From: Gemmatimonadaceae bacterium | GTDB taxonomy: Bacteria > Gemmatimonadota > Gemmatimonadetes > Gemmatimonadales > Gemmatimonadaceae | NCBI GenBank assembly: GCA_037721215.1 | Contig: JBBJNV010000001.1 | Coordinates: forward strand, 1-64,000 | Direction: 5' to 3' | Length of the DNA: 64,000 nt | Part shown: piece after piece, positions 24,313 through 59,966 of the stretch | Numbering within the stretch: the stretch's first letter is position 1 | Layout of the letters: each line of letters starts with the position of its first letter | Made by a program: the position numbers and the translations under genes | The notes under the pieces: generated by a model | What the model saw: only the letters and a program-made list of their open reading frames with translations | What the model was told of the DNA's origin: nothing | Databases searched by the model: none

Positions 24313-24348
24313 GGGGGGAGATTCGTGAAACCCAATAGGACGGAAAAA

Positions 24349-24413
24349 ATCCTTCCGGCTGCGGGCATTCCGGCCGTCGGCGGCCGGCTGAAGCGGAAAG
24401 GATGCTTCCAGCT
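24349..24413 (+). repeat. Family 1 half-repeat, left flank of four-helix cassette
   Basis: Matches roughly the first 65 bases of the 140-bp repeat, beginning ATCCTTCCGGCTGCGGGC, then diverges into a leader (TTTGATTCTTCAGGGC) that is shared with the second cassette at 38 kb. Together with 24487-24843 and 24883-25022 it forms one composite element of about 690 bp. Confidence 0.8.
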
Positions 24414-24486
24414 TGGCGGCCTTAGTTTGATTCTTCAGGGCGCGGGATGATGCTACCGGCGGAGGGGCGTACCGGTATGGTCGGGG

Positions 24487-24843
24487 ATGTCGGATTTCAA
24501 GAAACTAGATGTATGGAACAAGGCGCATCTACTCGCGCTTGATGCTCACAAGACAGCGATAGGGATTCGCGGCGCACACTACGTATCGCTTAGAAGCCAG
24601 CTTATTCGCGCGGCGATGTCCATCCCGGCGAACATTGTCGAAGGGCGGGAACAGGCAAGTGAAAAAGACTTCGCGAGATTCCTGCGATACTCAATCGGGT
24701 CTGCGTCCGAGCTTGAGTATCACTTGATCATCGGACGGAACATGGGATTGATCTCTCAGGAGTCGTTCGATTCGCTGCTCGAGAAGATCGAGCAGGTTCG
24801 GAAGATGCTCCACGGATTGGTTCGGCGGCTCGAGAGCGGCTGA
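24487..24843 (+). CDS. Four-helix-bundle protein (S23/IVS-like)
   Basis: A 118-residue protein starting MSDFKKLDVWNKAHLLALD. It has the family hallmarks LRSQLIRAAMSIPANIVEG, FLRYSIGSASELEYHLIIG and a closing leucine-rich helix. The family is known from open frames inside 23S rRNA intervening sequences and is related in fold to the Avd accessory protein of diversity-generating retroelements. Its activity is unclear; basic barrel-like pentamers that bind nucleic acid are described for Avd. Here it stands outside rRNA, flanked by a half and a full family 1 repeat. A broken copy lies at 38167. Confidence 0.88.
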   Translation: MSDFKKLDVWNKAHLLALDAHKTAIGIRGAHYVSLRSQLIRAAMSIPANIVEGREQASEKDFARFLRYSIGSASELEYHLIIGRNMGLISQESFDSLLEKIEQVRKMLHGLVRRLESG

Positions 24844-24882
24844 CTGGCCGGAAAAGTTGTCTGAGGCCAAAACGATCAAAAG

Positions 24883-25022
24883 ATCCTTCCGGCTGTTGGC
24901 ATTCCGGCCGTCGGCATCCGGCCGAAACGGAACGGATGCTTAACGCTCGCCGCCGGCTGCCCGCAGCATCAGTTCCGCAACGGCCGGGGGCCGACAGCCG
25001 GCGAGCCAAAAGCCGGAAGGAT
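24883..25022 (+). repeat. Family 1 repeat, full 140-bp copy
   Basis: Terminal arms ATCCTTCCGGCT and AGCCGGAAGGAT are exact inverted repeats. Short outer matches (GGAA/TTCC) are 3 nt outside them. It forms the right edge of the four-helix cassette and separates it from hipBA. Confidence 0.9.
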
Positions 25023-25099
25023 TCGTTCCGTCGTCAGTAATGGGGGCAAAAGCATGGAGTGTTGACGATTCGTCCACAATCCATGTAAGTTTACTATCA

Positions 25100-25120: not shown

Positions 25121-25136
25121 CGATCACCCACATATC

Positions 25137-26788: not shown

Positions 26789-26834
26789 GCATGTCAAGGG
26801 GGCGAGATTGCTCCAACCCAGCGGAACGGAAAAA

Positions 26835-26974: not shown

Positions 26975-27038
26975 TTGTTTCCTGAGCGCCAGCGCGGCGA
27001 AGGCGGCTCCGGGACTTTCCTCGGGTGTCAAGGAAGCG

Positions 27039-27691: not shown

Positions 27692-27699
27692 GCAGGTAA

Positions 27700-27717
27700 T
27701 GTATCACCCGTGAGACA
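27700..27717. promoter_or_regulatory. VapB operator candidate
   Basis: TGTATCAC-CC-GTGAGACA is an 18-bp inverted repeat with one mismatch, ending 9 nt upstream of the vapB start on the minus strand. Confidence 0.6.
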
Positions 27718-27772
27718 CGGTCGCAAGATGAAACTGGTCGAACTGTTCACGTAATGCCGACAGATCTCAAAG

Positions 27773-27912
27773 ATCCTTCCGGCTGTTGGCATTCCGGCCG
27801 TCGGCATCCCGGCCGAGACGGAAGGGATGCTAACGCCCGCCGCCGGCAGCCCGCGGCATCAGTTCCGCAACGGCCGGGGGCCGAGGGCCGGCGAGCCAAA
27901 AGCTGGAAGGAT
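27773..27912 (+). repeat. Family 1 repeat, full 140-bp copy
   Basis: Full-length element with ATCCTTCCGGCT and a one-base-changed right arm (AGCTGGAAGGAT). It lies between the vapBC promoter and the fic promoter. Confidence 0.9.
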
Positions 27913-27970
27913 TTCTTATCTGGGCTGAGATCATGCGGCGGCCCTATGAAGGCCGGCTAGGTCGGCCTGA

Positions 27971-28051
27971 CTTTAATAAGGGAGCGACTCTTCCGTATGT
28001 TAAAGCCAGCCTTTAATATACGGGGTGACTCCCGCTCATATTAAAGGCAGC
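27971..28051 (+). promoter_or_regulatory. Two tandem 40-bp palindromic units over the fic start
   Basis: Unit 1 (27971-28010) and unit 2 (28011-28051) both begin CTTTAATA, contain G(C/T)GACTC and end TTAAAG(C/G)CAGC. In unit 2, GCCTTTAATAT (28009-28019) and ATATTAAAGGC (28038-28048) form a perfect 11-bp inverted repeat. GGG/CCC pair inside it, leaving the GTG start of fic at 28025 in the loop. These may be operators for the winged helix of Fic and also an RNA hairpin on the start codon. Confidence 0.65.
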
Positions 28052-29197: not shown

Positions 29198-29221
29198 ATC
29201 ACGATGAAAAGGATATGAAAA

Positions 29222-29361
29222 ATCCTTCCAGCTGCCGGCATTCCCGCCACCGGCAGCCGGCGGAAACGGAAGGAATGCTTAACGCTCGCCGCCGGCAGCC
29301 CGTAGCATCAGTTCCGCAACGGCCGGGCGCCGACGGCCGGCGAGCCAACAGCCGGAAGGAT
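29222..29361 (+). repeat. Family 1 repeat, full 140-bp copy
   Basis: Full-length element between fic and the next vapBC. The right flank (TTCCACAGAGCGCAAGCG) closely matches that of the 35061 copy, so similarity extends past the terminal arm. Confidence 0.9.
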
Positions 29362-29400
29362 TAGTTCCACAGAGCGCAAGCGATGCCGCGACATTGGCAG

Positions 29401-29421
29401 GATAGTCATCTCATGACTATC
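29401..29421. promoter_or_regulatory. vapB operator, 21-bp perfect palindrome
   Basis: GATAGTCAT-CTC-ATGACTATC is perfectly symmetric and ends 2 nt before the vapB ATG at 29424. Bound repressor would cover the translation start region, so transcription must begin very close to the ATG or the site acts as a roadblock. Confidence 0.7.
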
Positions 29422-29423
29422 TT

Positions 29424-29690
29424 ATGACCATATCCAAAGTCGGCGTAGCAGACCTGAAGGCCAAGCTCAGCGAGTACCTGCGCACCGTGAAGCGCGGCGA
29501 AGAAATAACAGTCTCCGACCGCAATGAGCCAATCGCGCGGATCGTGCCTTTCACTTCGCGCGGTGCGCTCATTGTTCGCGAGCCGACACGTGAGTACAAG
29601 TCGTTCCGGGACATCAAACTTCCTCCCCCAGTAAAGCTCGACGTAGACCCAGTCGAGCTTCTTCTCCAGGACAGGAACAAGGAACGGTGA
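29424..29690 (+). CDS. vapB: VapB-like antitoxin (Phd/YefM fold)
   Basis: An 88-residue protein. MTISKVGVADLKAKLSEYLRTVKRGEEITVSDRNEPIARIVP is a canonical Phd/YefM N-terminal half. The C-terminal KLDVDPVELLLQDRNKER is the likely toxin-binding tail. It overlaps vapC as GTGA. No ribosome-binding site is visible because the operator palindrome abuts the start. Confidence 0.9.
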   Translation: MTISKVGVADLKAKLSEYLRTVKRGEEITVSDRNEPIARIVPFTSRGALIVREPTREYKSFRDIKLPPPVKLDVDPVELLLQDRNKER

Positions 29691-30103
29691 TAGCGTACAT
29701 CGACTCATCAGTTGTGCTGCGGGTAGTCCTCGGCCAATCCGGAAAGTTGGCGGAGTGGAAAACAATCACCACCGGCGTCGCAAGCGGGTTGATCGAAGTC
29801 GAGTGTCTTCGAACGCTCGACCGGCTGCACTTGAGCGGCAAGTTATCAGCCCAGGTGTCGGCCGTCCGACGTGAGGCAGTCTATCGGGTTATCGAGGCGC
29901 TCGAGCTGGTGGAACTCACGAGCGCAGTGTTGCACCGGGCTGCGCAACCGATGCCCGCTCCGCTGGGAACACTCGATGCAATTCACCTCGCCACCGCCGA
30001 CATGTGGCGCGAATCAAGAGGCAAGGAGCTCGTTCTGGCAACGCACGACCGCGCACTTGCACTCGCTGCGCGAGCCGTGGGACTTCAAACGATCGGGACC
30101 TGA
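29687..30103 (+). CDS. vapC: VapC-like PIN toxin
   Basis: A 138-residue PIN RNase: IAYIDSSVVLRVVLG supplies the first Asp, LIEVECLRTLDR the Glu, and TLDAIHLATADMW with ATHDRALALAAR the last acidic residues. The length is normal and all motifs are intact. The GTG start lies in the 4-nt overlap with vapB. Confidence 0.92.
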   Translation: MIAYIDSSVVLRVVLGQSGKLAEWKTITTGVASGLIEVECLRTLDRLHLSGKLSAQVSAVRREAVYRVIEALELVELTSAVLHRAAQPMPAPLGTLDAIHLATADMWRESRGKELVLATHDRALALAARAVGLQTIGT

Positions 30104-30125
30104 GCGTCATGACACGCCTGGATAC

Positions 30126-30524
30126 CTACGCCTTCCTCAGCGGCGTGATGCGCAGGCGTAACCATTTCGCTGCCGCCGACTGATCCACCTCATTCCGCGC
30201 GACACCGAGTACGAATGCCAGCAGCTCGTCCTTGGAGATGTTGAGCTCATGACCGTTCAGACGCAGAAAGACGAGCGTTGCCGCCAAAGCAGTTCGCTTG
30301 TTGCCATCCGCAAATACCTGCTTCTGCGCGAACCCGACTAGATAAGCTGACGCCAGCGCAGCGATGTCAGAGTCAGGCTCATAAACGTTCAGATTCCGGG
30401 CCTTGTGAAGCGCTGACTCCATCGCATTCTGGTCGAGTATTCCGTGCCTTCCACCAAAAAGCTCCAGTTGACGCACATGCATCAGCTGGAGCGCTTCTGT
30501 TGTAATCCAGCGCGGATCCTTCAC
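30126..30524 (-). CDS. Doc-like toxin with Gln in place of the catalytic His
   Basis: A 132-residue death-on-curing-type Fic fold (ALQLMHVRQLELFGGRHGILDQNAMESAL and FAQKQVFADGNKRTALAATLVF). The Fic/Doc motif normally reads H-x-F-x-(D/E)-x-N-K-R; here the first residue is Gln (codon CAG). Doc from phage P1 uses the His to phosphorylate EF-Tu. Relatives with Gln at this site exist in sequence collections as far as I recall, so this may be a subfamily rather than decay. It is coupled to the AbrB-type antitoxin by an ATGA overlap. Confidence 0.85.
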   Translation of the reverse strand: MKDPRWITTEALQLMHVRQLELFGGRHGILDQNAMESALHKARNLNVYEPDSDIAALASAYLVGFAQKQVFADGNKRTALAATLVFLRLNGHELNISKDELLAFVLGVARNEVDQSAAAKWLRLRITPLRKA

Positions 30525-30751
30525 TCAGCCAGAGCCTGAAAGACCTCACGGTATTGGGCGACTATTTCGTCGTGATGATTCAGTGCTTCCAATGTTTCGG
30601 GGTCGATAGTGGTCACCACGAATCGACCGGCACCATCCTCGATCCAGTAAAGTGGATCGCCGGGGGCCGCACCCAGGCGGCGTGCAACTTCATTGGGAAT
30701 GGAGGTAACCATCGACCCGCCCTGAACGCGGGTGTTACTCGTAATAACCAT
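30521..30751 (-). CDS. AbrB/MazE-type antitoxin
   Basis: A 76-residue SpoVT/AbrB swapped-hairpin protein: TRVQGGSMVTSIPNEVARRLGAAPGDPLYWIEDGAGRFVVT, then an acidic tail for toxin binding. I start at MVITSN (30751). The longer frame from 30802 would translate straight through the direct-repeat operator and lacks family similarity. The pair replaces the more usual Phd partner of Doc with an AbrB-fold one. Confidence 0.85.
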   Translation of the reverse strand: MVITSNTRVQGGSMVTSIPNEVARRLGAAPGDPLYWIEDGAGRFVVTTIDPETLEALNHHDEIVAQYREVFQALAE

Positions 30752-30783
30752 CTGGACCCTCGGCGGGGATGAAAAGTCTCGTA

Positions 30784-30801
30784 TAACACAAAAGTAACAC
30801 A
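30784..30801. promoter_or_regulatory. Direct-repeat operator candidate for AbrB-Doc
   Basis: TAACACA occurs at 30784-30790 and 30795-30801, one helical turn apart, upstream of the antitoxin start on the minus strand. Confidence 0.45.
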
Positions 30802-30845
30802 TCGGTTCTACATCGTCAAATCAACGGGTGTTTTGTTTGACTATT

Positions 30846-30863
30846 GTATATATCCGTATATAC
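30846..30863. promoter_or_regulatory. BrnA operator candidate
   Basis: GTATATA-TCCG-TATATAC is an 18-bp perfect palindrome ending 6 nt before the brnT ATG, where BrnA-type repressors are known to bind. Confidence 0.65.
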
Positions 30864-30869
30864 TGACCC

Positions 30870-31202
30870 ATGGGCAATGAAAGTCTGGAACTCCTTGCTC
30901 AGGCGGCGGGATTCGACTGGGACGCTGGAAATGTCGTGAAAGTGGAGACCCGTCACAGTGTCCAGCCAGCCGAATGCGAGCAGGCGTTCCTGGCGGAGCC
31001 GTTTCTGGTCAGTTTCGATAAAACACATTCGAAATACGAGCCACGATGGCAAGCGTTGGGCAGCACATCCGCCGGCAGGTGGCTGTTCATCGTTTTTACA
31101 GTGCGGAGCAACTTGATTCGCGTGGTTGGAGCGCGAGACATGAACAAGAAGGAGAGGTTACGATATGCCGAAGTCAAAGCGCGTCTTGCGAACGATTCCT
31201 GA
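30870..31202 (+). CDS. brnT: BrnT family toxin
   Basis: A 110-residue RelE-fold RNase. FDWDAGNVVKVETRHSV is the BrnT start pattern (F-x-W-D-x-x-K-x-x-x-N-x-x-K-H), here somewhat divergent. RWLFIVFTVRSNLIRVVGARDMNKKERLRY is the C-terminal signature with the catalytic Arg and the ARxMxxKE segment. As usual for this module, the toxin comes first. It overlaps brnA by 38 nt. Confidence 0.9.
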   Translation: MGNESLELLAQAAGFDWDAGNVVKVETRHSVQPAECEQAFLAEPFLVSFDKTHSKYEPRWQALGSTSAGRWLFIVFTVRSNLIRVVGARDMNKKERLRYAEVKARLANDS

Positions 31203-31470
31203 ATTCAAGTCAGAAGCAGATGAGCAGGAGTTCTGGGCCACTGCGGATTCGACTCAGTACATCGACTGGTCGAAGGCCAGGGTTATCCGATTTCCGAATC
31301 TCCGTCCGTCGACCACGGCGATCTCTATCCGGTTGCCCGACACGTTACTCACAGAGTTGAAGCTTCTCGCCAACGAGCGTGACGTTCCCTACCAGAGTTT
31401 ACTGAAAGTGTACCTGGCGGATCGTGTGTCTGCGGAGCGCAGGGTCAAACGTCGGCGGGCGGCGGGCTGA
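31165..31470 (+). CDS. brnA: BrnA family antitoxin
   Basis: A 101-residue protein. EFKSEADEQEFWATADSTQYIDWSKA is the BrnA-like toxin-binding half. TTAISIRLPDTLLTELKLLANERDVPYQSLLKVYLADRV is a ribbon-helix-helix DNA-binding domain. GGAGAGG lies about 6 nt before ATG 31165. It neutralises BrnT and represses the operon through the palindrome at 30846. Confidence 0.9.
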   Translation: MPKSKRVLRTIPEFKSEADEQEFWATADSTQYIDWSKARVIRFPNLRPSTTAISIRLPDTLLTELKLLANERDVPYQSLLKVYLADRVSAERRVKRRRAAG

Positions 31471-31596
31471 GGTGACTGCGTAAAGGTCGACGAGAGCTAG
31501 CGGCACGGGCCCGCCTGCTTGCCCCCATGCTTCCTGTCCTCTGCCAGGTACACCGTGGCCATGCCCCCACGAGGCGTTCACGCTCGAACGGAAAAA

Positions 31597-31700
31597 ATCC
31601 TTCCGGCTGCCGGCTTTCCGGCCACCGGAGGCCGGCTGAAACGGAAGGGGATGCTTCACGCCCGCCGCCGCCCGCCGCCGGCAGCCCCGCGGCATCAGTC
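31597..31700 (+). repeat. Family 1 repeat, right-truncated
   Basis: Left arm ATCCTTCCGGCT and core are present, with an extra CCCGCCGCCG duplication. Similarity stops at GCATCAGT near 31700 and the right arm is gone. Truncation lies just upstream of the TumE operators. Confidence 0.8.
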
Positions 31701-31713
31701 CCCGGCTCTCAAG

Positions 31714-31761
31714 CGTTGGAGTGATTGACAACGCGCCGTGGTGTTGGTACATTCTCCAACA
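31714..31761. promoter_or_regulatory. Two inverted repeats before the TumE-type pair
   Basis: CGTTG-N10-CAACG (31714-31733) and TGTTGG-N8-CCAACA (31742-31761). The second ends on the first base of the ATG, so repressor binding would mask the start. Confidence 0.55.
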
Positions 31762-32057
31762 TGGGCGCCACGCTCCTTCTTCGCACACGGATCGTGTTCG
31801 CTGACAATGCGTTCGCCGAGATGGTCCTGTGGCGCGTCACGAAGACGCTGCCGGGCTCGAGGCATTCGTTCAAGTACCGGCTGGCGTATGTGGTGGATCA
31901 GCAGTGCGTACTCCGTTACGACAATGAAGCGGGGAAGGGCGATCATCGGCATCTCGGTAACACCGAGCGGGCGTATCGGTTCACGACGCCGGAGAAATTG
32001 ATCGCCGACTTTCAGGCCGATATCGAGAGGTGGCAGCATGAAAACCGTAACGCTTGA
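31761..32057 (+). CDS. TumE-family (DUF6516) toxin
   Basis: A 98-residue protein: MGATLLLRTRIVFADNAFAEMVLWRV, then SFKYRLAYVVDQQCVLRYDNEAGKGDHRHLGN and YRFTTPEKLIADFQADI. The R-Y-D-N-E-x-x-x-G-x-H-x-H block is typical of the DUF6516/TumE toxin family. ATG 31761 is chosen because it abuts the operator and starts the conserved region. Overlap with the next gene is 20 nt. Mechanism of the family is not settled. Confidence 0.82.
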   Translation: MGATLLLRTRIVFADNAFAEMVLWRVTKTLPGSRHSFKYRLAYVVDQQCVLRYDNEAGKGDHRHLGNTERAYRFTTPEKLIADFQADIERWQHENRNA

Positions 32058-32385
32058 AGTGCGCACCGCGCGCGACGCGATGGCCGGATTCGCGCAGACA
32101 TGGAAGCGCGGCAAGGCCGACACGTCGGCACGTATCATCTTCGATACGCCGGAACTGCTCTGGCGAGTACTCACCGCGAAGCGTTGGGAGCTGCTCAAGA
32201 CACTCTGTGGCGCGGGCCCGGTTTCCATTCGCGAGGCGGCGCGGCGCGTGGGTCGTGATGTGAAGGCCGTGCACGGCGACGTCACGGCGCTGCTCAATGC
32301 CGGCATTCTCTATCGGCATGAGGACGGCGGTATCGTGTTCCCATTTGAGGCGATTCAAGTGGACTTCACGTTGCGCGCCGCGTAG
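32038..32385 (+). CDS. HVO_A0114-type DNA-binding antitoxin
   Basis: A 115-residue protein with a MarR-like winged helix in its second half (LLWRVLTAKRWELLKTLCGAGPVSIREAARRVGRDVKAVHGDVTALLNAGILYR). It belongs to the HVO_A0114-like family of putative antitoxins that accompany TumE toxins. The N-terminal TLEVRTARDAMAGFAQTW may contact the toxin. It is translated from inside the toxin reading frame, which implies coupling. Confidence 0.82.
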   Translation: MKTVTLEVRTARDAMAGFAQTWKRGKADTSARIIFDTPELLWRVLTAKRWELLKTLCGAGPVSIREAARRVGRDVKAVHGDVTALLNAGILYRHEDGGIVFPFEAIQVDFTLRAA

Positions 32386-32453
32386 CGACCCCGTGACCCT
32401 AGCCTTGCGCCGTTCAAACAAAAAACTCGCCATATTCTCGCGCAAATGACGGG

Positions 32454-34955
32454 TCAGCCCTTCGGCCAGAGCAGCTCACGAATCGGAGCGTAATCCTCCA
32501 TCGCCTTGATGTCGAATTCCCGGTGAAGGAGCGGCTGATACGGCATTCCTTCAGCGAACGCCTGCTGAAGCAGGGTGTAAGTCAGATCGCGGTCGCCAAG
32601 CGCAGCGGCAATCAGCGCGCGGGCATACGCGGTCGGCTCCTTCATCATCCTCAGCTTTTCAATAAAGCCTCTTGCAGCCGCCGTGTCGCCGAGATGCGCA
32701 GCAAGCTGGCCTGGTAACGAGTATCCCCCGTCGGCAGGCAAAAACTTGGGGAGCCTGTCGCGCGCTTCGGCATACCGGCCGGCGTGGAACAATGTATTTA
32801 TCACGTTCTCCTGCCGAGCTTCGGTAAGCTCGGCGTCCGGCCGGCTGTCGTACCATGCCAGCGCCCGGTTGGCGAGCTGATTCGACGCAGCGAGGAAGCC
32901 GTGAGCCCTGTACTCGCGCGCCGCAAACAACATCAACGCAGCTGGCGTATCCTCGTTACGCGACGGGCGGCGCATCCGCTCGTTGATAAGAGCATTCACC
33001 TCGTCGACACGCCCTAATGCTGGAAGGATCTGAGCTGCCTCGAAATCGGTAGCCAATCCGAGCTGACGCTCCCGCTCGACTGCGGCCAGCTCGGCCTGAA
33101 GATCGCCGGTGAGATGCAGGCCATCGGTTCTGATTCCCCAGCCAAATTTGAGATTGCCTTCGGGGTCGGCTTTCTTCAGCGCGGCAAGCGCTTCACGCGG
33201 TCGGCTGGCAAAGATCGTAAAGCCTGCCATCTGAATCAGCAGCAGCGGATCAGGGGCAAGCTCCGCCGCCCGCCGTCCCGCCTTGTATGCCGCCTCCCAG
33301 TCATAATTGAGCTCAGCCTGACGGCGCTCGACGAGAGCGCGATCGACGGGTGTGAGGCGATCCCGGGTTTCATAACGCAGCTTCAGGACCGGCGACAGAA
33401 TCTCGAGCATGGGAAGAACAAACGTAGAATCGAGCTCTATCGCTTTCTGGAATTCGCGGTCTGCATCGGCGGAGCTGGTTCCCACGGTGGCACCCATGCG
33501 CGGAAGATCGGCCTCGATTCCCGCGCGATACGCGCGATACGCCTCGTAGATTGGCGGCTCCGTCGCCTTGCGCGCCCAGTTGCGAATCAATGGATCGTTC
33601 AGCGATGCAAGCGCGCCGAGAACTCGCGGGCGCAGTCGCTCGAGCCCAGCACTCGGATTCGACGCCGGAGCAGTGACAGGACTGAAAGCGCGCACCACCC
33701 TCGACGTGCGCGCATCGAGCACCTCGGCCTGAATGCGCACGCTGTCACCTTCTCTATAGTATCTGCCGCGTACTATGAGTCCGGGCCTGGTGGAATCTCC
33801 TTTGGCTTGAGCGGCCTCGACAACTTCGCCCACTCCACTCTGGGCGATCGCCTGACGAAGGAGATCGGATGCAAGCTTGCCGATGGGATCGAGCGATGCA
33901 TCACGTGTCTGATTCTCGAAATCGGAGACGATTACGTGATGGTCATCAAACACGGGACTTCGATCGCGTCCGGCAAACCAGGCGACACCGGCAAATGCAG
34001 CAAGTCCGAGGACGAACGCAGCCGCAATCGCGGGCCGGCGCGAGCGGGGGGGATCAGTTGTCGCTCTCGGCGTTACGGCAATATGAGGAGCCGTCGCATG
34101 AGGTGTCGACGCACCTGGCGTGGCGATCACTGCAAGCTGCTGGATGAGCTCTTCCGCCGTCTGCCACCGGTCTGCAGGCTTTTTTTCCAGACACCGCATG
34201 ATGACGTTCGCGAGAGCGGGCGGAACGGAAGCTCGATGTGTCGTGACGTGATCCGGAGTTCGGGTCACATGCGCAGCGAGAATCATCTGCGGTGACGTTC
34301 CGGTGAATGGAGGAGTACCGGCCAGCAGCTCGTATCCAACTACACCGAGCGCATAAATATCAGCGCGATGATCGGTATTGGGATCCGCAGCGGCCTGTTC
34401 GGGCGCCATGTAAGTGGGTGTGCCGAGCGCGACTCCAACCGAGGTGACGTTGGCATCGCTCGTCGCTTCGCTCACTGCCTTGGCGACACCGAAATCAGTG
34501 ACCACCGCAAAATTGCCGGTGAGCATGATGTTGTCCGGCTTGATGTCGCGGTGAACTACACCATGGTTATGCGCGTACGCGAGCGCGGATGCGGTATCGC
34601 GGAGAATGGATGCAACATCGCTCACCGGGAGCTCGCCACTGCGAACGAGCCGCGCCCGCAACGATTCCCCCTCGATCAGCGGCATCACATAATAGAGGAG
34701 ATTGCCGCGTGATCCCGCGGTGAGGAGCGGAACGATGTGCGGATGCTGAAGCGATGCGGCGAGCTGGATCTCGCGCCGGAACCGGGCGACGTTCACCGAT
34801 GCAACGGTCTCCGGCGGAAGCACCTTGATCACCACTTTCCGCCCCAGCGCTGTCTCCTCGGCCACGAACACCCGCGACATGCCGCCTGTGAGCTCGCGCT
34901 CCAGTTGGTACGTATCGCCAAGTAACTGTTGGAGCTGGTTGTGGAGTTCGTTCAT
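32454..34955 (-). CDS. Membrane Ser/Thr protein kinase with TolB-like and TPR region
   Basis: An 833-residue PknB-type kinase. The kinase domain spans about residues 16-280: catalytic Lys44 in VVIKVLPPE, HRDIKPDN (135-142), DFGVAK (154-159) and GTPTYMAPEQ. The Gly-rich loop is short (ELTGGMSRVF). A transmembrane segment near 305-327 (AIAAAFVLGLAAFAGVAWFAG) follows, then a TolB-like domain (VIVSDFENQTRD...) and TPR-like helical repeats to the C-terminus, presumably periplasmic. It is divergent from a paralogue at 35303, with a family 1 repeat in the shared promoter region. Confidence 0.93.
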   Translation of the reverse strand: MNELHNQLQQLLGDTYQLERELTGGMSRVFVAEETALGRKVVIKVLPPETVASVNVARFRREIQLAASLQHPHIVPLLTAGSRGNLLYYVMPLIEGESLRARLVRSGELPVSDVASILRDTASALAYAHNHGVVHRDIKPDNIMLTGNFAVVTDFGVAKAVSEATSDANVTSVGVALGTPTYMAPEQAAADPNTDHRADIYALGVVGYELLAGTPPFTGTSPQMILAAHVTRTPDHVTTHRASVPPALANVIMRCLEKKPADRWQTAEELIQQLAVIATPGASTPHATAPHIAVTPRATTDPPRSRRPAIAAAFVLGLAAFAGVAWFAGRDRSPVFDDHHVIVSDFENQTRDASLDPIGKLASDLLRQAIAQSGVGEVVEAAQAKGDSTRPGLIVRGRYYREGDSVRIQAEVLDARTSRVVRAFSPVTAPASNPSAGLERLRPRVLGALASLNDPLIRNWARKATEPPIYEAYRAYRAGIEADLPRMGATVGTSSADADREFQKAIELDSTFVLPMLEILSPVLKLRYETRDRLTPVDRALVERRQAELNYDWEAAYKAGRRAAELAPDPLLLIQMAGFTIFASRPREALAALKKADPEGNLKFGWGIRTDGLHLTGDLQAELAAVERERQLGLATDFEAAQILPALGRVDEVNALINERMRRPSRNEDTPAALMLFAAREYRAHGFLAASNQLANRALAWYDSRPDAELTEARQENVINTLFHAGRYAEARDRLPKFLPADGGYSLPGQLAAHLGDTAAARGFIEKLRMMKEPTAYARALIAAALGDRDLTYTLLQQAFAEGMPYQPLLHREFDIKAMEDYAPIRELLWPKG

Positions 34956-35060
34956 GCGGGGCGGTGGGGGACGTGGCTAATGTAGTAAAACAGTGGCTGC
35001 GAGGAGAGGTCCGGCGGCGGTACGAGCGGAACCTGCCGAAGCCGGGATAACGATCAAGAG

Positions 35061-35200
35061 ATCCTTCCGGCTGCGGGCATTCCGGCCGTCGGCAGCCGGC
35101 CGAAACGGAAGGGATGCTTAACGCCCGCCGCCGGCAGCCCGCAGCATCAGTTCCGCACCGGCTGGGGGCCGAGGGCCGGCGAGCCAAAAGCCGGAAGGGT
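35061..35200 (+). repeat. Family 1 repeat, full 140-bp copy
   Basis: Sits in the 347-bp gap between the divergent kinase genes. The right arm reads AGCCGGAAGGGT, one change from consensus. The gap holds no other gene; both kinase promoters must lie on its edges. Confidence 0.9.
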
Positions 35201-35302
35201 CCGTTCCACAGCGCGCAAGCGACGCCGCCCATCGTCATAGAAGCGTAGCTCGAGGCTCTGGACGCGCCTACATTAGCCTCACACTTCTGGAGCACACCCG
35301 CA

Positions 35303-37972
35303 ATGGCTGAGTTGCGCGACCAACTGCAGGCAACACTAGGCGACGGATACACGCTCGAGCAGGAGCTCGGCGGTGGCGGCATGTCGCGGGTGTTCGTCGC
35401 GCAGGAGTCAGCGCTCGGACGGAAGGTCGTCGTCAAGGTTCTGCCACCGGAGATGGCGGCAGCGGTAAGCCTCGACCGATTTCGTCGTGAGATCCAACTG
35501 GCCGCGCAGCTCCAGCATCCTCACATCGTGCCGCTTCTCACAGCGGGTGATACCAACGGCTTGCCCTATTTCACCATGCCATTCGTGCGCGGAGAGTCGC
35601 TGCGCTCGCGACTGCTCAAGGGCGGTGAGCTACCGGTATCGGAGACCGTAAGGATCCTCCGCGAAGTCGCGTCAGCCATCGCATACGCACACGAGAACAA
35701 CATCGTGCATCGCGATATCAAACCCGAGAACGTGCTGATTTCCGGCGGCTCGGCGGTGGTGACGGACTTTGGCGTGGCGAAGGCCCTGAGCGCATCGAGC
35801 GAAGCCGCGCCTGATACTCTCACCTCGATGGGCGTTGCGCTCGGCACACCCGCCTACATGTCACCGGAGCAGGCCACCGCCGACCCGAACACGGATCATC
35901 GCGCGGATATCTATGCGCTTGGGGTGATGGCGTACGAGATGCTCACCGGGTCGACTCCATTCACAGGTCGCTCACCGCAGGCGACACTCGCGGCACACGT
36001 GACCGAAGTGCCAGACGCCATCACGCGTCGAAGGTCGACGATACCTCCCGTGCTGGCTTCGCTCGTGATGTCGTGCCTCGAGAAGCGTCCGGCTGATAGA
36101 CCTCAGACTGCACACGAGGTGATGCACCGGCTGGACGCGCTCAGTACGCCGAGTGGTGGGTTGGCTCGCACGGTTCAGGCGACAGCGGTGAAGCCGGCGA
36201 AGGAGGGCAAGCGAACCCGGAGGATTGCGGTATTCACGGCGGTTGCCGTGGCCGCTGCGATCGCTGCTTTCGGGCTGACCGAATATCGAAAGCGCGATTC
36301 CGTGTCCACCGCGAAAGCTGAAACACCGGTGATCGCGGTACTTCCATTCGAGAACCTGGGCAGGCCCGAAGGCCGCGAGTTTACCGACGGAATGACTGAG
36401 GAGATCACGAGCCGCCTGTCATCATTGCGCGGTCTCAAGGTGATCGGCCGGCAAACGTCGAAGAGCTATGCCGGGACGACCAAGACCCCGCAGCAGATCG
36501 CCAGTGAGCTCGGTGTGAATTATGTACTGACTGGAACCGTCAGATGGGACCGTACCGGTGATGGAAAGGACATTGTGCGCGTGAGTCCGGCGCTGGTGAG
36601 AACCGCGGATGCGACGCAGGTATGGGCAAAGCCGTTCGAGACGATTCTTTCGGGCATCTTCGAGGTTCAGTCAAAGGTGGCTACCGAAGTCGCGAACGCG
36701 CTCGACGTCGCGCTGCTTCAGCCGGAAAAAGACGCCCTCGCTGCGCGCCCCACCGAAAGTGTCGAAGCTTACAGCCATTATCTTCGCGGGACCGAGCTGC
36801 TGAGGACCAGCCTTCAGGTCCCGGACATCCGGACGGCCATAGCGGCACTGGAGAAGGCGGTCGCACTCGATCCTCAATTCGCACTGGCGCATTCACAGCT
36901 CTCCATCGGCCACACGGGGCTCTTCTGGTTTGAGAGCGACCGCACTGCCGAGCGCCTGAGGAAAGCCCGTGCCTCAGCCGACAGGGCGCTCTCGCTGCAG
37001 CCGTCGCTGGCAACTGCCCACCTCGCTCTCGCGATCTACTACTATCAGGGGCTGCTCGATTTCGAGAGTGCATTGAAGGAGCTGTCGATCGCCCAACAGG
37101 CGCGCCCCAACGACTTTGAGATTCTCTTCTACAAGGCGGCGATCGAGAGACGGCAGGGAAAGTGGCGAGAATCGATCGCCAACATGAACCGCGCGATCGA
37201 GATCGAGCCTCGAATAGGAAGCTACATATCGGACTTCGCCGATACTCATTACACGCTCCGTGAATACGATCAGGCCGAACGGCTGGCGGACCGTGCGTTG
37301 ATCGTCACTCCCAGAGAGCCTGACGCCCTCGGTCTCAAGTCAGAGATCGCGATAGCAAGGGACGGCGATGTGCCGCGGGCCCTGCAGTTCGTTCGACAAC
37401 GATTCGCTGCAGAGGCCGGCGCGAGAGGTGGCCTGGGCAGCGCGGCGGCGGACCCCTTCAATGCGGGCTGGCCCGCCCTGGCAGATCAGAAAATCCGCGA
37501 TGCGTTGTTGTCGGCGCAATGGAGACCGGAGCTGGATGAGCGGTCTTCGTTCCTCGTTAACCGGATGATGCTGTTCTATGTCATTCAGGACATGCCGCGT
37601 GCCCGTGCCTACGCCGATTCGGCTCTGGGGCCGCTTGCCTCCAAGGTGCGCGAGCGCTCCGATGATGCCAGATACTATTCTCGCCTCGGCCGGGTTCAGG
37701 CAATTCTTGGCCGGAGGCAGGAAGCACTGGCGGCCGCCGACAAAGCCATTTCGCTGCGCCCTGTGTCGAAAGATGCCTACGGAGGCCCGGATTTCGTGGC
37801 GAACCGTGCGGTCATCCTGATGATGCTCGGAGATACCGACCGGGCCATCAGCGAGATGCAGAGTCTGCTCGAGATTCCGTCGCCTGTTTCGAGGAACGCG
37901 ATCAGGCTGAATCCGCTTTTCGCGGCGCTTCGAAGTCATCCCCGATTTAACGATCTGGTCCGGGGCCCGTGA
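35303..37972 (+). CDS. Membrane Ser/Thr protein kinase with TolB-like and TPR region, paralogue
   Basis: An 889-residue kinase. Gly loop ELGGGGMSRVFVA (21-33), Lys45, HRDIKPEN (136-143), DFGVAK (155-160), GTPAYMSPEQ. A transmembrane helix lies near 308-330 (IAVFTAVAVAAAIAAFGLT). A FlgO/TolB-like domain follows: VIAVLPFENLGRPEGREFTDGMTEEITSRL and VNYVLTGTVRW. TPR repeats continue to the end. The kinase halves of the two neighbours are much more alike than their sensor halves. A copy of this gene's 3' end occurs as a remnant at 38624. Confidence 0.94.
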   Translation: MAELRDQLQATLGDGYTLEQELGGGGMSRVFVAQESALGRKVVVKVLPPEMAAAVSLDRFRREIQLAAQLQHPHIVPLLTAGDTNGLPYFTMPFVRGESLRSRLLKGGELPVSETVRILREVASAIAYAHENNIVHRDIKPENVLISGGSAVVTDFGVAKALSASSEAAPDTLTSMGVALGTPAYMSPEQATADPNTDHRADIYALGVMAYEMLTGSTPFTGRSPQATLAAHVTEVPDAITRRRSTIPPVLASLVMSCLEKRPADRPQTAHEVMHRLDALSTPSGGLARTVQATAVKPAKEGKRTRRIAVFTAVAVAAAIAAFGLTEYRKRDSVSTAKAETPVIAVLPFENLGRPEGREFTDGMTEEITSRLSSLRGLKVIGRQTSKSYAGTTKTPQQIASELGVNYVLTGTVRWDRTGDGKDIVRVSPALVRTADATQVWAKPFETILSGIFEVQSKVATEVANALDVALLQPEKDALAARPTESVEAYSHYLRGTELLRTSLQVPDIRTAIAALEKAVALDPQFALAHSQLSIGHTGLFWFESDRTAERLRKARASADRALSLQPSLATAHLALAIYYYQGLLDFESALKELSIAQQARPNDFEILFYKAAIERRQGKWRESIANMNRAIEIEPRIGSYISDFADTHYTLREYDQAERLADRALIVTPREPDALGLKSEIAIARDGDVPRALQFVRQRFAAEAGARGGLGSAAADPFNAGWPALADQKIRDALLSAQWRPELDERSSFLVNRMMLFYVIQDMPRARAYADSALGPLASKVRERSDDARYYSRLGRVQAILGRRQEALAAADKAISLRPVSKDAYGGPDFVANRAVILMMLGDTDRAISEMQSLLEIPSPVSRNAIRLNPLFAALRSHPRFNDLVRGP

Positions 37973-38029
37973 AACAACGATTGGGGGATAGAGGCTGCGA
38001 GATTGCTGCAAACCAGCGGAACGGAGAAA

Positions 38030-38092
38030 ATCCTTCCGGCTTTCGGCATTCCGGCCACTGGCAGCCGGCTCAGGCGGAACGCATGCTTCCAG
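38030..38092 (+). repeat. Family 1 half-repeat, left flank of second four-helix cassette
   Basis: First 63 bases of the repeat, then the same leader (TTTGATTCTTCAGGGC, GATGATGCTACCGGCG) as before the intact four-helix gene at 24487. Cassette structure is therefore duplicated, not just the gene. Confidence 0.8.
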
Positions 38093-38166
38093 CGTGACGG
38101 CTTCAGTTTGATTCTTCAGGGCACGGGATGATGCTACCGGCGGCGCGGCGTCTTGGTATCGTCGGA

Positions 38167-38432
38167 ATGTCGGACTTCAAGAAACTCAATTATTCGCGCG
38201 GCCATGTCCATCCCAGCGAACAGTGTCGAAGGGCGGGAACAGGCGAGTGAAAAAGACTTCGCGAGATTCCTGCGATACTCAATCGGGTCTGCGTCCGAGC
38301 TCGAGTATCACTTGATCATCGGTCGGGACATGGAATTGATTTCTCAGGAGGTCGTGCAATTCGCTATTCGAGAAGATCGAGCAGGTTCGGAAGATGCTCC
38401 ATGGATTGATTGGGCGGCTCGACAGGGACTGA
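38167..38432 (+). pseudogene. Broken four-helix-bundle gene, second cassette
   Basis: Starts MSDFKKL as in the 24487 copy, then lacks 95 bases (equivalent to 24507-24601) replaced by CAA, which shifts the frame. Downstream the sequence again encodes AAMSIPANSVEGREQASEKDFARFLRYSIGSASELEYHL with few changes. A one-base insertion after SQE shifts it a second time. The nucleotide identity outside the gaps is very high, so the copy is recent. The product is certainly not functional as a four-helix bundle. Confidence 0.88.
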
Positions 38433-38470
38433 CGGGCCGGAAAGTTCTTTGAGGGCCAAACGATCAAAGA

Positions 38471-38610
38471 ATCCTTCCAGCTGCCGGCATTCCGGCCGTT
38501 GGCAGCCGGCCGAAACGGAAGGGATGCTTCACGCCCGCCGCCGGCAGCCCGCAGCATCATTTCCGCAACGGCCGGGGGCGGAGGGCCGGCGAGCCAAAAG
38601 CCGGAAGGAT
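38471..38610 (+). repeat. Family 1 repeat, full 140-bp copy
   Basis: Right edge of the second cassette, preceded by GGGCCAAACGATCAAAGA as in the first cassette (24883 copy). The right arm AGCCGGAAGGAT is followed by TTCCACAC and then the kinase remnant. Confidence 0.9.
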
Positions 38611-38623
38611 TCGTTCCACACAT

Positions 38624-43565: not shown

Positions 43566-43603
43566 AGCGGCATTGATGGAGGTGGAAGGACTAAACAACA
43601 ATA

Positions 43604-43696
43604 GTTTTCAGGTGGCCTGGTAGCCTGGTGGCAGCTGTCTGTCTCAGTTGCGCCGTTTGCGGGAAGCTGAACCCTGGCCTCAGGCCGCCTGAAAAC
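43604..43696. repeat. Family 2 inverted-repeat element, short copy
   Basis: Begins GTTTTCAGGTGGCCTGG and ends CAGGCCGCCTGAAAAC, matching the ends of the 383-bp element at 58728. The internal part is only about 50 bases and has no gene. It lies between the ppk2 promoter and the end of an acetyltransferase gene. Confidence 0.85.
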
Positions 43697-43724
43697 CCAT
43701 CGTAGTTCCTGTGTTCCTGATGTT

Positions 43725-56353: not shown

Positions 56354-58012
56354 TCAGCGAACGAAATTCGCAAGCGTCTGACCCATCGCGTCCATCGACA
56401 ACCTGGCACTCCCGCGATCGCGGCCGTTATAGATGAACGAAAACGCCATCACCTCGCCATTCATCGCCGTGACATAGCCGCCGAGCGCGATGACATCGTT
56501 GGTCGTCCCGGTTTTCGCGTGCAGATTCCCCTGCGCCTGGCCTCCGCGCATCCGCCGGCGCATGAGCTCCGACTCGCCAGCCACCGGCAGGGATGAGTGA
56601 AACCACGGACCCCACGGTGCACGGTGGGCGAAGCCGAGCATCTGCGTCATCGCCCGCGGGGTGACGCGGTCGAGTGTGGACAGACCGCTTCCGTCGGCAA
56701 CCCGAAGATTCATGGTATCGGCGCCGATTTTGGTGGCGAAGATATTTCGCAGCAGCGCCTGACTTGTCGCCGCATTTCCGACGATGTCGCGCTTCGGCCC
56801 GCGCGCCGCGTTTCTCAGCAGCAGCTCGGCGTAATGATTGATGCTTTCGCGGTTCATCGCGGCGACGATCCGGTCGAGCGTGGGCGACTGAACGCTGGCC
56901 AGCTTCGTCGCACCCTGCGGTGTCTTGCCAAGCTGAATTGCGCCATCGACGGCGACGCCTTTGGCCACGAGGGCGCTACGTAATGCGCCGGTGGTGAAGG
57001 GAGCTGGATTCTCGACTACATACACGTATCGGCGGGGGATCGAACCAGACCCGATGGTGCCGGATACAGTAATCTCGCCCGCTCTGTCCCGCCGGATCGA
57101 CAGGCGCGCGCCACCGCCCTTTACCGTGCGCACGTTGTTCACCAACGGAATGGCGCTCGTCGCGGGCTCGAGTTTCGCGCCCTGGCCCGGAACGACGGTG
57201 ACCCAGATCAGATTCTCGTTCAGCGAGAGACCCGACACGCGGGCAGCGTAGCCCGATTGCAGATAGCGGCTCAGCCAGCCCTGCGGAATCAGCTCGTTGT
57301 CGAACGCCGTTGCATCCCCGATCACGGTGCCGGTCACCCGCTTAATGCCGCGCGCGGCCACCTGATCCGCGAGCAGCTGCATCGGCGCACCCGGGCCGCC
57401 GCGGAGATATCTGCCGGACAATGTTGGATCGCCATCGCCCCGCAGATAGAGATTGCCGGTGAGCGTGCCGTCGGTGCCGATGGTTCCGTCGTAAAGCACG
57501 TCGGTGCTGAACCGGTACGAAGGCCCCAAACGCTCGAATGCCGCGACGCTGGTGAGCATCTTCATCGTCGATGCGGGGAGAAGCGGGGTGCCGGCGTTAT
57601 ACGCGAGCAGGGTATCACCCCGCGTCAGCGAGACAATCATCACGCCGAACTGGCCGGCGCGTACACGGCTCGCCATAGCGCCCAGGTCGGCGGTGAGTGA
57701 CGCAGCCGACCGGGGCGCCGTGTAGTTCACCACCGGTACGACTGGTGCACGCCTTCCGCGGCCGGCGGCGCGCTTACTGCGACTGGATGCACGCCTGCTG
57801 CGACTGGATGCGCTTCTCGTGCGGGCGGATGCGGTCCTTGCGCGGGTGGTTGGCCGCTTGACCGCCTTCTTCTTCGCCGCCTGCCGCCTCGCGGCCGCGG
57901 AAGTCGTCGTTTTCTTTTTGGTCGTTTGTCGGCGCGTCTGTGCATCCATCGGCATTGCCGCGATCGTAGCAAGAAGGATGACGGCGATGATCCTGAGTTT
58001 TCTAAGAAACAT
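56354..58012 (-). CDS. dacB: D-alanyl-D-alanine carboxypeptidase/endopeptidase, PBP4 type, with basic linker
   Basis: A 552-residue PBP4-family enzyme. The signal peptide is MFLRKLRIIAVILLATIAAMPMDAQ. Residues 27-88 are a Lys/Arg/Ser/Ala-only tract. The catalytic domain has S148-T-M-K151 (SxxK), RESINHYAELLLRN (SxN) and HAKTGTTND (KTG), with the usual PBP4 insert between. It trims peptidoglycan peptides in the periplasm. The basic tract is not part of known PBP4 enzymes and might bind DNA, teichoic-like polymers or the wall. A start 19 codons upstream is possible but precedes the signal peptide. Confidence 0.92.
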   Translation of the reverse strand: MFLRKLRIIAVILLATIAAMPMDAQTRRQTTKKKTTTSAAARRQAAKKKAVKRPTTRARTASARTRSASSRSRRASSRSKRAAGRGRRAPVVPVVNYTAPRSAASLTADLGAMASRVRAGQFGVMIVSLTRGDTLLAYNAGTPLLPASTMKMLTSVAAFERLGPSYRFSTDVLYDGTIGTDGTLTGNLYLRGDGDPTLSGRYLRGGPGAPMQLLADQVAARGIKRVTGTVIGDATAFDNELIPQGWLSRYLQSGYAARVSGLSLNENLIWVTVVPGQGAKLEPATSAIPLVNNVRTVKGGGARLSIRRDRAGEITVSGTIGSGSIPRRYVYVVENPAPFTTGALRSALVAKGVAVDGAIQLGKTPQGATKLASVQSPTLDRIVAAMNRESINHYAELLLRNAARGPKRDIVGNAATSQALLRNIFATKIGADTMNLRVADGSGLSTLDRVTPRAMTQMLGFAHRAPWGPWFHSSLPVAGESELMRRRMRGGQAQGNLHAKTGTTNDVIALGGYVTAMNGEVMAFSFIYNGRDRGSARLSMDAMGQTLANFVR

Positions 58013-58192
58013 TAGGCGTGATTCGAGATTCGTTGCGGGAAAGGCGGGCTGTTCTTTTTTACACCGCAAACGCGAGATTCACACCATAGTGCGGGGACGC
58101 GTTCCGGGCCACTGGTGCCGCGGACGCGTCTATGCAAGTCTACCTGAAATCAGTAGCTTCCGGTCAACAAAAACGAGGTGGGAGAAAGATCG

Positions 58193-58711
58193 ATGGCTGA
58201 GCGGCACAATACATTTCGCGAGGGCGTGTTCGCAGGCGTCATTGGAGCCACTGCGGTGGCGATATGGTTTCTGATCATCGATGTAGTCGCTGGCCGCGGA
58301 TTCATGACTCCCAATCTCCTGGGGCGTGGCCTGGTCAGCGTGCTGGGAGCCGGTGCTTCGATGATGCCCGACACGATGATGGCGCACGTCATTGTATACA
58401 CGATATTCCACTACATCGCGTTTTCGCTGGTCGGAATCATGATGGCGACTGTCGTTCATCAGGCCGAGCGCACGCCTGCCGTGCTTGCCGGGTTCCTGCT
58501 CGGGTTTGTAGCGTTCGAGTTGGGGGCGGTAGGACTGACCGCGCTGCTGATGGAGTCGGATTACGGCGGGCTGGCATGGTACCAGATTTTCATTGCCAAT
58601 CTGCTGGCGGCGTCGCTGATGTTCTGGTTCATGTGGAAGAGGCACCCAAGGCTTGGGCATGATATCAGCGTTGGGCTGGGGGGAGAGGACGATACGACAG
58701 GGGCGGTTTGA
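58193..58711 (+). CDS. Four-helix integral membrane protein
   Basis: A 172-residue protein with four probable membrane helices (about residues 15-36, 62-84, 95-120 and 132-152) and a short charged tail. ATG 58193 is preceded by GGGAGAAAG at about 7 nt. No family signature is recognised; the pattern resembles small DUF-type membrane proteins of Gemmatimonadota and Acidobacteria. It is followed directly by the family 2 element. Confidence 0.72.
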   Translation: MAERHNTFREGVFAGVIGATAVAIWFLIIDVVAGRGFMTPNLLGRGLVSVLGAGASMMPDTMMAHVIVYTIFHYIAFSLVGIMMATVVHQAERTPAVLAGFLLGFVAFELGAVGLTALLMESDYGGLAWYQIFIANLLAASLMFWFMWKRHPRLGHDISVGLGGEDDTTGAV

Positions 58712-58727
58712 ACCGCGTGACGGACGA

Positions 58728-59110
58728 GTTTTCAGGTGGCCTGATGCCTGGTGGCTGTTGTCTGTAACTGCCAAAACTGAGAAAAACCTAAGACGGACAG
58801 GTGTCAGCGAGGCAGAGGCGGGGTGCGAGGTTCAGGTGTCAGGTGTCAGGTGTCAGGTGCCGAGCGCATGAGACTTCTGCCAGACAAGCAGCTTCTTGAA
58901 ATCGGACACATGGAAAAGATTGCGACTTAATCGCGTCCCCGATCGCCGTTCCTTTCTTGAAGCAATCATAACCGTGCGCCAACGACCCCTGCCCCCTGAC
59001 CCCTGACCCTCGCACCTGCCCTCTGCCTCCCTGATACCTGTCCGTCTTGGGCTGTTCTCAGTTTTGGCAGTTACAGACAGCTGTCCTCAGGCATCAGGCC
59101 GCCTGAAAAC
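58728..59110. repeat. Family 2 inverted-repeat element, 383 bp
   Basis: The left arm (58728 to about 58852) and right arm (about 58987 to 59110) are near-complementary over some 120 bases. They run from GTTTTCAGG(T/C)GGCCTGA through CTGTAACTGCCAAAACTGAG to GACGGACAGGT and a GTGTCAGGT tandem. The unpaired centre of about 134 bases contains a four-helix gene stub. Overall this is the layout of a MITE or an intervening sequence. The 418-bp gap holds nothing else. Confidence 0.9.
58853..58909 (-). pseudogene. N-terminal stub of a four-helix-bundle gene inside family 2 element
   Basis: GTG 58909 opens VSDFKKLLVWQKSHAL, which matches the N-terminus MSDFKKLDVWNKAHLLAL of the gene at 24487. Two residues later a stop falls where the left arm begins. 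The rest of the gene, about 100 codons, is deleted. It is too short for routine gene calling. Confidence 0.8.
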
Positions 59111-59129
59111 TCGCAGTTCCGCCGTCCGT

Positions 59130-59966
59130 TCACGCCGCTTCAGGCTTCCAGTCCACCTGCGCCCCCGCGGCATGGTCCTCCCCGCTCGCCGCCCACTTGA
59201 AAAACACAACCGACATGATCCCCACAAAGATCAACCCGCCCGGCACCCACATCACCAGTCCTCCGAGCAGCTGATCATCCATTGGTGACAACCCCCAAAC
59301 CCGGGGCGCCGTGGAGTACGCGGGGTAAAGCACCTGCTCCGCCATCGAGATGTAAACCGCGGGAATCGACATCGCGACGCTCATCAGGAAGCAGTAGAGC
59401 ATCTGCGCTGGGTACGGGAGCCGCGGCAGCTCCGGCAGCTGGCTCAAGAGCGGCCACCACATGAGCACGGCGGCAGCCATGAACATAAGGTGTTCGACGA
59501 TGTGAATTCCGTGATCTGCCAGCGCAGCGTTGTAGAAAATCGGGAGATGCCAGAACACGATGACGACATTGAAAATCGCGAAGCACGCGATCGGTCGCGT
59601 AACGGTGCGCGCAATCACACCCGTCACCTTGTGCCTGACCAGAGGCCGAAGCATCCACCCCGGCACTCCGTAAATCATCAGCGGTGGCATCGCGAGCGTC
59701 AGCATGAGATGCTGCACCATGTGAGCGCTGAAGAGGTACACGTCGCTCAGATCGTGAATCGGCCCGTTGAGCGACGCGAAGATGATGAACAGGGCGAAAA
59801 AGAAACTGGCCTTTCGCGCGCCGGTGACATGCTCGTCATCGCCACCATGCCGAGCGCGCCAGAGGTAGATCGCACCAAGTGCCGCCAGACCGATTACAGT
59901 GCTCGGATGAATCGACCATGTCATCCAGTCGAGGTTCGCGACCGGGTGCAGCAGCGCGATAATCAC
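59130..59966 (-). CDS. ctaG: Cytochrome oxidase assembly protein CtaG (caa3 type)
   Basis: A 278-residue membrane protein with about seven helices and the Caa3_CtaG signatures SAHMVQHLMLTLAMPPLMIYGVP, FWHLPIFYNAALADHGIHIVEHLMFM and SVAMSIPAVYISMAEQVLYP. Conserved His residues in the helices are thought to handle copper for the CuA/CuB centres. It is the last gene of the oxidase operon and starts 73 nt after the subunit IV gene. Confidence 0.9.
   Translation of the reverse strand: MIIALLHPVANLDWMTWSIHPSTVIGLAALGAIYLWRARHGGDDEHVTGARKASFFFALFIIFASLNGPIHDLSDVYLFSAHMVQHLMLTLAMPPLMIYGVPGWMLRPLVRHKVTGVIARTVTRPIACFAIFNVVIVFWHLPIFYNAALADHGIHIVEHLMFMAAAVLMWWPLLSQLPELPRLPYPAQMLYCFLMSVAMSIPAVYISMAEQVLYPAYSTAPRVWGLSPMDDQLLGGLVMWVPGGLIFVGIMSVVFFKWAASGEDHAAGAQVDWKPEAA

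Follow-up and report, generated by a model that had tools for sequence, protein, structure and literature searches.

The inverted repeat at 58728-59110 of the window (the whole stretch of 64,000 nucleotides that was analysed, from a bacterium of the family Gemmatimonadaceae) is a degenerate copy of a small mobile element that carries a four-helix gene between inverted heptamer arrays. An inverted-arm layout of this kind surrounds four-helix genes in most of the loci sampled, in many bacterial phyla. Mobility of the element is well supported; its chemistry is inferred. The reading that we prefer, with somewhat better than even confidence, is that the element is related to the intervening sequences (IVSs) of 23S rRNA but stands on its own, and that its protein works on its own hairpin together with enzymes of the host.

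The window element and its insertion site

An earlier note on this DNA had described an inverted repeat with arms of about 120 bp in an element of 383 bp. The repeat is real, and only its sizes were slightly underestimated. The left arm (58725..58854, + strand, 130 nt) and the right arm (58984..59113, + strand, 130 nt) are 85% complementary to each other and 129 nt apart, and RNA of 58728-59110 has a folding energy of -248 kcal/mol, versus -127 +/- 6 kcal/mol for 100 shuffles (z -19.3). The repeat can be traced outward, with an indel, close to the stop codons of both neighbouring genes, and the whole insert, to which no strand is assigned, spans all of the DNA between the stop codons of its left and right neighbours (58712..59129, 418 bp). 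Identity at a lag of 7 nt is 0.41 in the element, versus 0.22-0.29 at lags 2-6, and reaches 0.49 in 58712-58865. Tandem Repeats Finder reported an array of period 7, (AGGTGTC) x4.7, in the left arm (58828..58859, + strand) and a GACCCCT / CCCCTGC array (3.7 and 6.9 copies) in the right arm (58984..59033, + strand).

The centre of the element contains a 57-nt 5' stub of a four-helix gene on the minus strand (58853..58909), delimited by alignment with a gene on contig C14 of the same genome. It begins with a GTG start at 58909 and its translation is VSDFKKLLVWQKSHAL; all of the gene beyond it, up to the left arm, is deleted. The stub (58909-58853) aligns with the start of the C14 four-helix ORF, which itself lies between the same arms, and its DNA matches the starts of four-helix genes in other genomes of the genus (e.g., G011, E 2e-11, 88%). 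The 16-residue match on which the stub had originally been recognised is thus due to homology. A chance palindrome with a coincidental match of 16 residues, which has nothing in its favour except the shortness of the stub, is refuted by this DNA homology, by the same arms around the 126-codon ORF of C14, and by the fold z of -19, and its probability is negligible.

The left neighbour of the element codes for a 177-aa protein without a Pfam match (58178..58711, + strand; its TGA ends at 58711), and the right neighbour codes for CtaG, a caa3 oxidase assembly factor (PF09678; 59130..59966, - strand; stop at 59130-59132). The two genes are convergent, and the insert fills the entire 418 bp between them. 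In 15 of the 18 other genomes of the genus, both neighbours were found in one locus, with 14-223 nt between the matched parts, versus 451-653 nt in the genome of the window, and in most of 13 printed intergenic stretches of the relatives the two stop codons nearly touch. Since the neighbours lie close together in relatives, all 418 bp between the stops are extra. Inspection by eye of the sequence around 58712 and 59129, and of the relatives' empty sites, showed no clear target-site duplication, a point against the preferred reading. There was no Rfam match in 58000-59800, and rRNA is absent at the site.

Copies of the element in the same genome

A search of the whole genome, a 3.5 Mb assembly of 45 contigs that is 96.6% complete, revealed the arm family of the window element at five further places, namely on contigs C14, C26, C11 and C2, and in the window itself at 43603-43709. 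Among the 149 genomes searched, the arm sequence is confined to this one. The C14 arms are 118 nt long, 79% complementary and 473 nt apart; the 126-codon ORF between them (L011 1726-2106) matches PF05635 and TIGR02436. The earlier note had named the lack of any full-length relative with an intact gene as the result that would refute its account; that condition is not fulfilled, as the C14 copy is a full-length relative with the ORF between the same arms. The middle helix of the C14 product reads ERRCRSRRTSLKGS, and relatives have RAAMSIPANIVEG, a change that two compensating frameshifts would give, as judged from sequence alone; the C14 gene, the only full-length gene of this family (family 2) in the genome, may already be inactive. 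The C26 and C11 copies have two arms each without a gene, the C2 copy has one recognisable arm, and the copy in the window is a gene-less miniature of 107 bp (43603..43709, + strand).

The C14 site, too, is empty in 12 relatives. Both of its flanks were found in 13 genomes, of which 12 have 19-127 nt and one (G012) has 418 nt between them, versus 927-996 nt in the genome of the window. Approximately 30 nt of the outer left flank of the C14 copy match the end of the CtaG gene that stands beside the window element (score 41, versus 15-22 for eight other flanks), and the trimmed stretch scored better than 2000/2000 shuffles. CtaG belongs natively to the window site, so the match is most simply explained by a copy that moved from there to C14, taking along a scrap of the neighbouring gene, before the window copy lost its own gene. 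It is from the empty sites, the several copies and gene-less derivatives, and the transported scrap that we infer mobility.

The window contains two members of another family (family 1), which resemble each other (arm scores 36-56). The first (24339..25032, + strand) has arms at 24339-24406 and 24965-25032 around an intact four-helix gene (24487-24843); the second (38029..38611, + strand) has a truncated gene (38153-38452). Six of the seven four-helix loci of the genome lie between matching arms, with scores of 36 to 121. The seventh (L150 4991-5128; C4:136390) is decayed, with an in-frame TAG and no arms left. Between element families, arm scores were 15-29, versus 47-121 for an element's own arm pair, in agreement with the previous claim that the window arms are unrelated to family 1. 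Family 1 also forms palindromes of ca. 140-150 bp (arms ca. 60 nt, 24 nt between them) at 24883-25022, 26830-26979, 35060-35201 and 38466-38615, and further single arms occur within 24339-38615. These hairpins cluster among accessory genes, such as those for a HipB-like antitoxin (25137-25466) and a Phd antitoxin (29424-29690).

Inverted arms around four-helix genes of other bacteria

An arm test was used in which the left flank of a locus is aligned with the reverse complement of its right flank. With the first scoring (match 5, mismatch -4), alignments ran through unrelated DNA, and only 4 of 67 loci exceeded the control maximum; after this result, the scoring was changed to 2/-3 with stiffer gaps, and was then kept for all later sets. 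A version with 150-nt flanks was brought in at the cross-phylum stage and applied as it stood to Gammaproteobacteria.

The four-helix family (TIGR02436) is present in 52 of 61 genomes searched. The 67 order loci comprised the seven of the window's genome and 60 chosen for well-assembled contigs, with their flanks still unseen. Fifty-four of them exceeded the maximum (44) of 1377 random control positions, whose median was 21, and 61 exceeded the 99th percentile; the 13 loci that did not exceed the maximum count against the preferred reading. Of 30 control loci with a Phd antitoxin gene from the same order (41 genomes searched), none exceeded the 99th percentile. The earlier inference that the association of unrelated inverted-repeat families with one gene is not due to chance therefore holds and has become very strong, both in the genome of the window (6/7 loci with matching arms) and in the order (54/67). 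In these 54 elements, the arms align over 30-148 nt with a median identity of 0.88, and the complete unit measures 408-847 nt (median 598).

The median score of own arm pairs was 67, versus 18 for 4422 cross-element pairs; each element has arms of its own, and these match one another. This bears on the possibility that we are dealing with a non-autonomous unit, similar to a MITE, that is moved by an unrelated transposase and in which the four-helix gene is a passenger or a regulator. Terminal inverted repeats and short gene-less copies are common to MITEs and the present elements. The arms of different elements in one genome are, however, totally different, while one transposase would need common ends; moreover, a target duplication was not seen, and the gene, itself subject to purifying selection, is all that stays constant across phyla. 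We consider this explanation improbable.

A scan of named genomes yielded 80 four-helix loci from many phyla. Four were dropped as too near contig ends, and eight Gemmatimonadota loci (one of them also among these four) were excluded from the cross-phylum counts; L160, L162, L163 and L164, among the eight, appear to be genomes of the genus that had already been sampled. With 150-nt flanks, 40 of the 69 loci outside Gemmatimonadota exceeded the maximum and 47 exceeded the 99th percentile of 365 controls. With 500-nt flanks the yield was lower (21/69 above the 99th percentile), which is a further point against the preferred reading. Among 30 gammaproteobacterial loci, returned by protein score alone, 19 exceeded the maximum of 113 controls and 26 exceeded the 99th percentile. 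In the cyanobacterial set, one control position scored 87, above all eight four-helix loci, and the maximum of controls fails as a criterion there. When 17 loci without arms were scanned for a location in 23S genes, rRNA was not found.

Heptamer arrays as arms

The flanks of four-helix genes have an excess of identity at lag 7 in the order (z +8.0), across phyla (+12.3), on cyanobacterial plasmids (+3.7) and in Gammaproteobacteria (+9.1); most sets also have harmonics at 14 and 21. In the same four sets, flanks are inverted and not direct at 61/67, 61/74, 7/8 and 26/30 loci, versus 169/402, 163/438, 9/48 and 47/113 in the matching controls. Had the gene jumped into a tandem array, its two sides would carry direct copies; we therefore conclude that the arms belong to the element.

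The units differ from element to element. Geothrix (L168) has TCAGCTA before the gene and TAGCTGA after it, Niabella (L198) has TAACTGA units after the gene, and another locus (L328) has (GGCAGTC)n / (GACTGCC)n. On a plasmid of Nostoc edaphicum (L158), where GTAGGGA units are found, the gene is flanked by nrdB and nrdA and is on the strand opposite to theirs. Outside Gemmatimonadota, CTGAT, GCTAA and ACTGA are enriched in 3' flanks, and their complements in 5' flanks. A universal heptamer core was considered and rejected; the order set differs in being GC-rich, and there is no common motif.

Three loci of the cyanobacterial-plasmid set have four-helix genes inside cas operons (L155 2995-3363, L153 3001-3360 and L156 2986-3342). 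In two of the three (L153 and L155), the operon is of type I-D, and the gene, with heptamer arms, lies between cas6 and cas4; the carriers are Anabaena sp. 90 and Pseudanabaena galeata. In L156, of type III-B, the gene lies between cas10 and a Cmr3 family gene, with a short inverted pair of 17 nt. The cas6/cas4 gap is 23 nt in Nostoc sp. UHCC 0302 and 36 nt in Pseudanabaena sp. ABRG5-3. Dolichospermum sp. UHCC 0315A was rejected as an example of an empty site, as the place of the four-helix element of Anabaena sp. 90 is taken there by a different insert (L290 2320-2564) with a GTTGGGTTT...GGAAACCCAAC palindrome. In the part of the source available to us, 18 genes of this family are described from cas loci (PMC3936711). 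This matters for annotation: where such genes appear as candidate cas genes, they may instead have been inserted into the operons.

Such cas-locus genes could also be taken to mean that the four-helix gene is not mobile, i.e. that it belongs to the host and codes for a protein that binds heptamer arrays close by, which would be regulatory sites. Support for this comes from the accessible text of a study of TAACTGA heptamer arrays in Beggiatoaceae, where regulation was proposed (PMC4679880). Empty sites, several copies, a transported flank and non-syntenic relatives speak against it, and, being disfavoured by insertion polymorphism, it is in our opinion very improbable.

Matching of the arms and selection on the protein

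The window copy has the same two 2-nt insertions in both arms and in no other copy of the family, and its arms are 77% alike, versus at most 69% to any other arm. The C11 copy, with arms that are 56% alike, showed no such homogenisation. At one orthologous locus in two genomes (L139/L143; flanks 75-79% identical), arms scored 38 and 45 with their own partner, versus 35 and 23 across species; at another (L140/L144) the difference was slight (49 and 40, versus 37 and 38). Clear homogenisation is thus limited to a single copy of family 2 and a single orthologous pair, and this also counts against the preferred reading.

Stem mismatches of the G.U kind outnumbered those of the A.C kind (169 to 131, p 0.03); in the window element, the ratio was 1 to 7 in the sense of the stub. 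The excess is faint and is no firm sign of selection for a sense RNA hairpin, another point against the preferred reading; since it is only faint, copying between the arms explains their match at least as well as selection on an RNA stem. These data are relevant to an alternative in which everything happens at the RNA level: the arms would fold in a host transcript, RNase III would cut the stem, as it does in 23S IVSs, spread would proceed via an RNA intermediate, and the four-helix protein would be an RNA chaperone similar to Avd. The stem of -248 kcal/mol, the slight G.U excess, a weak match of one locus (L092) to the bAvd profile, below the cut-off, and the protein family and layout (an ORF between complementary ends) of 23S IVSs, as far as the accessible part of PMC4990558 describes them, are consistent with it. 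Yet the G.U signal is weak, and in the window element it points the other way; reverse transcriptase is unmatched in the genome of the window, and the elements frequently adjoin the stop codons of convergent genes and do not lie within structured RNA. We regard this alternative as rather unlikely.

The four-helix protein is under purifying selection (dS 0.27, dN 0.04 in the orthologous pair L140/L144); in other gene pairs, synonymous sites are near saturation and other sites are at 0.17-0.26. Of the ten closest protein pairs examined, eight occupy loci that are unrelated, and in some of them the arms have nothing in common either (L114/L115, in the same genome). The net charge is positive in 61 of 64 four-helix proteins. 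Solved relatives of the PF05635/TIGR02436 protein are 2GSC and 2RLD; solved-structure matches to designed TIM barrels were rejected as spurious. One solved relative is described as a pentameric ring in the portion of PMC4990558 that could be consulted.

Discussion

The closest known system is the 23S IVS. According to the available part of one source, IVSs contain the same ORF family, have complementary ends and are cut by RNase III (PMC4990558); according to that of another, insertions in rRNA genes of CPR bacteria have the same ORF in 16S and 23S genes (PMC11270868). IVSs (S23p / 23S_rRNA_IVP ORF; Leptospira, Coxiella) and our elements share a PF05635 ORF within complementary ends, a sporadic distribution, and decay of the ORF in some copies; an ORF inside is found in full in the C14 copy and only as a 57-nt stub in the window copy. 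In contrast to IVSs, the element lies between protein genes and not in rRNA, its arms are longer, consist of heptamers and are private to each element, and one genome has multiple copies, including gene-less derivatives. Of the link to 23S IVSs that the earlier note had suggested, the layout and the protein family thus stand, while the location, without rRNA at the site, does not. The assembly had no 23S rRNA match at all; its rRNA was probably lost in binning. Cargo and layout are the same in the element and the IVS, while location, heptamer arms and evident mobility set the element apart; it is the mechanism that will decide if it forms a separate class.

Heptamer arrays of cyanobacteria are known as STRRs. 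In the accessible parts of the literature, arrays of GGGAATC / GGGGATT are reported for Xanthomonas and Nostoc, with 70 and 75 inverted array pairs in two xanthomonads (PMC4692102). Known arrays and the arms described here are alike in being intergenic 7-nt repeats with inverted pairs (in Xanthomonas), indels in 7-nt steps and a patchy distribution. Unlike here, where the arrays are the arms of an element, no four-helix gene or element is named in the available portions of PMC4679880 and PMC4692102. In the open PMC literature, no paper that joins heptamer arrays with a four-helix gene was found; an earlier report elsewhere is possible.

REP/BIME sequences with RAYT, and other Y1-transposase systems, involve short palindromic intergenic units next to gene ends. 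The elements resemble REP/BIME in that such units adjoin gene ends, but differ from REP/RAYT in the protein family and in that the arms are not common between elements; no match to Y1 transposase (Y1_Tnp, PF01797) was found in the assembly (45 contigs, 96.6% complete). The four-helix protein Avd (bAvd) of diversity-generating retroelements is related to PF05635, as stated in the part of PMC10053308 at our disposal. Unlike such retroelements, the elements occur in a genome without a reverse transcriptase match (PF00078, RVT_1; 45 contigs, 96.6% complete). The missing matches argue against known kinds of retrotransposition and against RAYT; as the assembly is incomplete, absence is not proof.

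A free-standing relative of IVSs, the reading that we prefer, could work as follows. An intact element consists of one gene for a basic four-helix protein between two long complementary arms of degenerate 7-nt repeats; gene and arms insert together between genes, in many cases directly at stop codons. We infer that the protein binds the hairpin, of single-stranded DNA or of RNA, that its own arms form, and that the cutting and joining of the hairpin which it presents would fall to the replication and repair enzymes of the host. One arm may be copied from the other, by fold-back or template switching, so that the arms stay matched and new heptamers reach both. Two turns of B-form DNA are 21 bp. 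Three heptamers have this length, and we speculate that the protein could touch the same face at every third unit. To our knowledge, no catalytic residue is known in the four-helix family, and no movement step was observed; both are points against this mechanism.

A bolder extension is possible, though we put it forward tentatively and at less than even confidence. The elements may be an undescribed class of autonomous element, present in many phyla and without a recognisable nuclease, transposase or reverse transcriptase, in which a pentameric four-helix protein moves its own heptamer-arm hairpin and fold-back copying matches the arms, with 23S IVSs and the STRR, TAACTGA and GGGAATC arrays as members or debris.

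Two of the results go beyond the earlier note, namely that the arms are built of 7-nt repeats and that the pattern spans phyla. The finding ties together three puzzles: the spread of 23S intervening sequences, the role of S23p and other four-helix proteins, and the origin of heptamer arrays. As the protein gene and the inverted heptamer arms travel as one unit, these come down to one testable question, whether the protein binds and moves its own hairpin. The layout offers an explanation for the long-puzzling 7-base repeats and makes the spread of the element testable.
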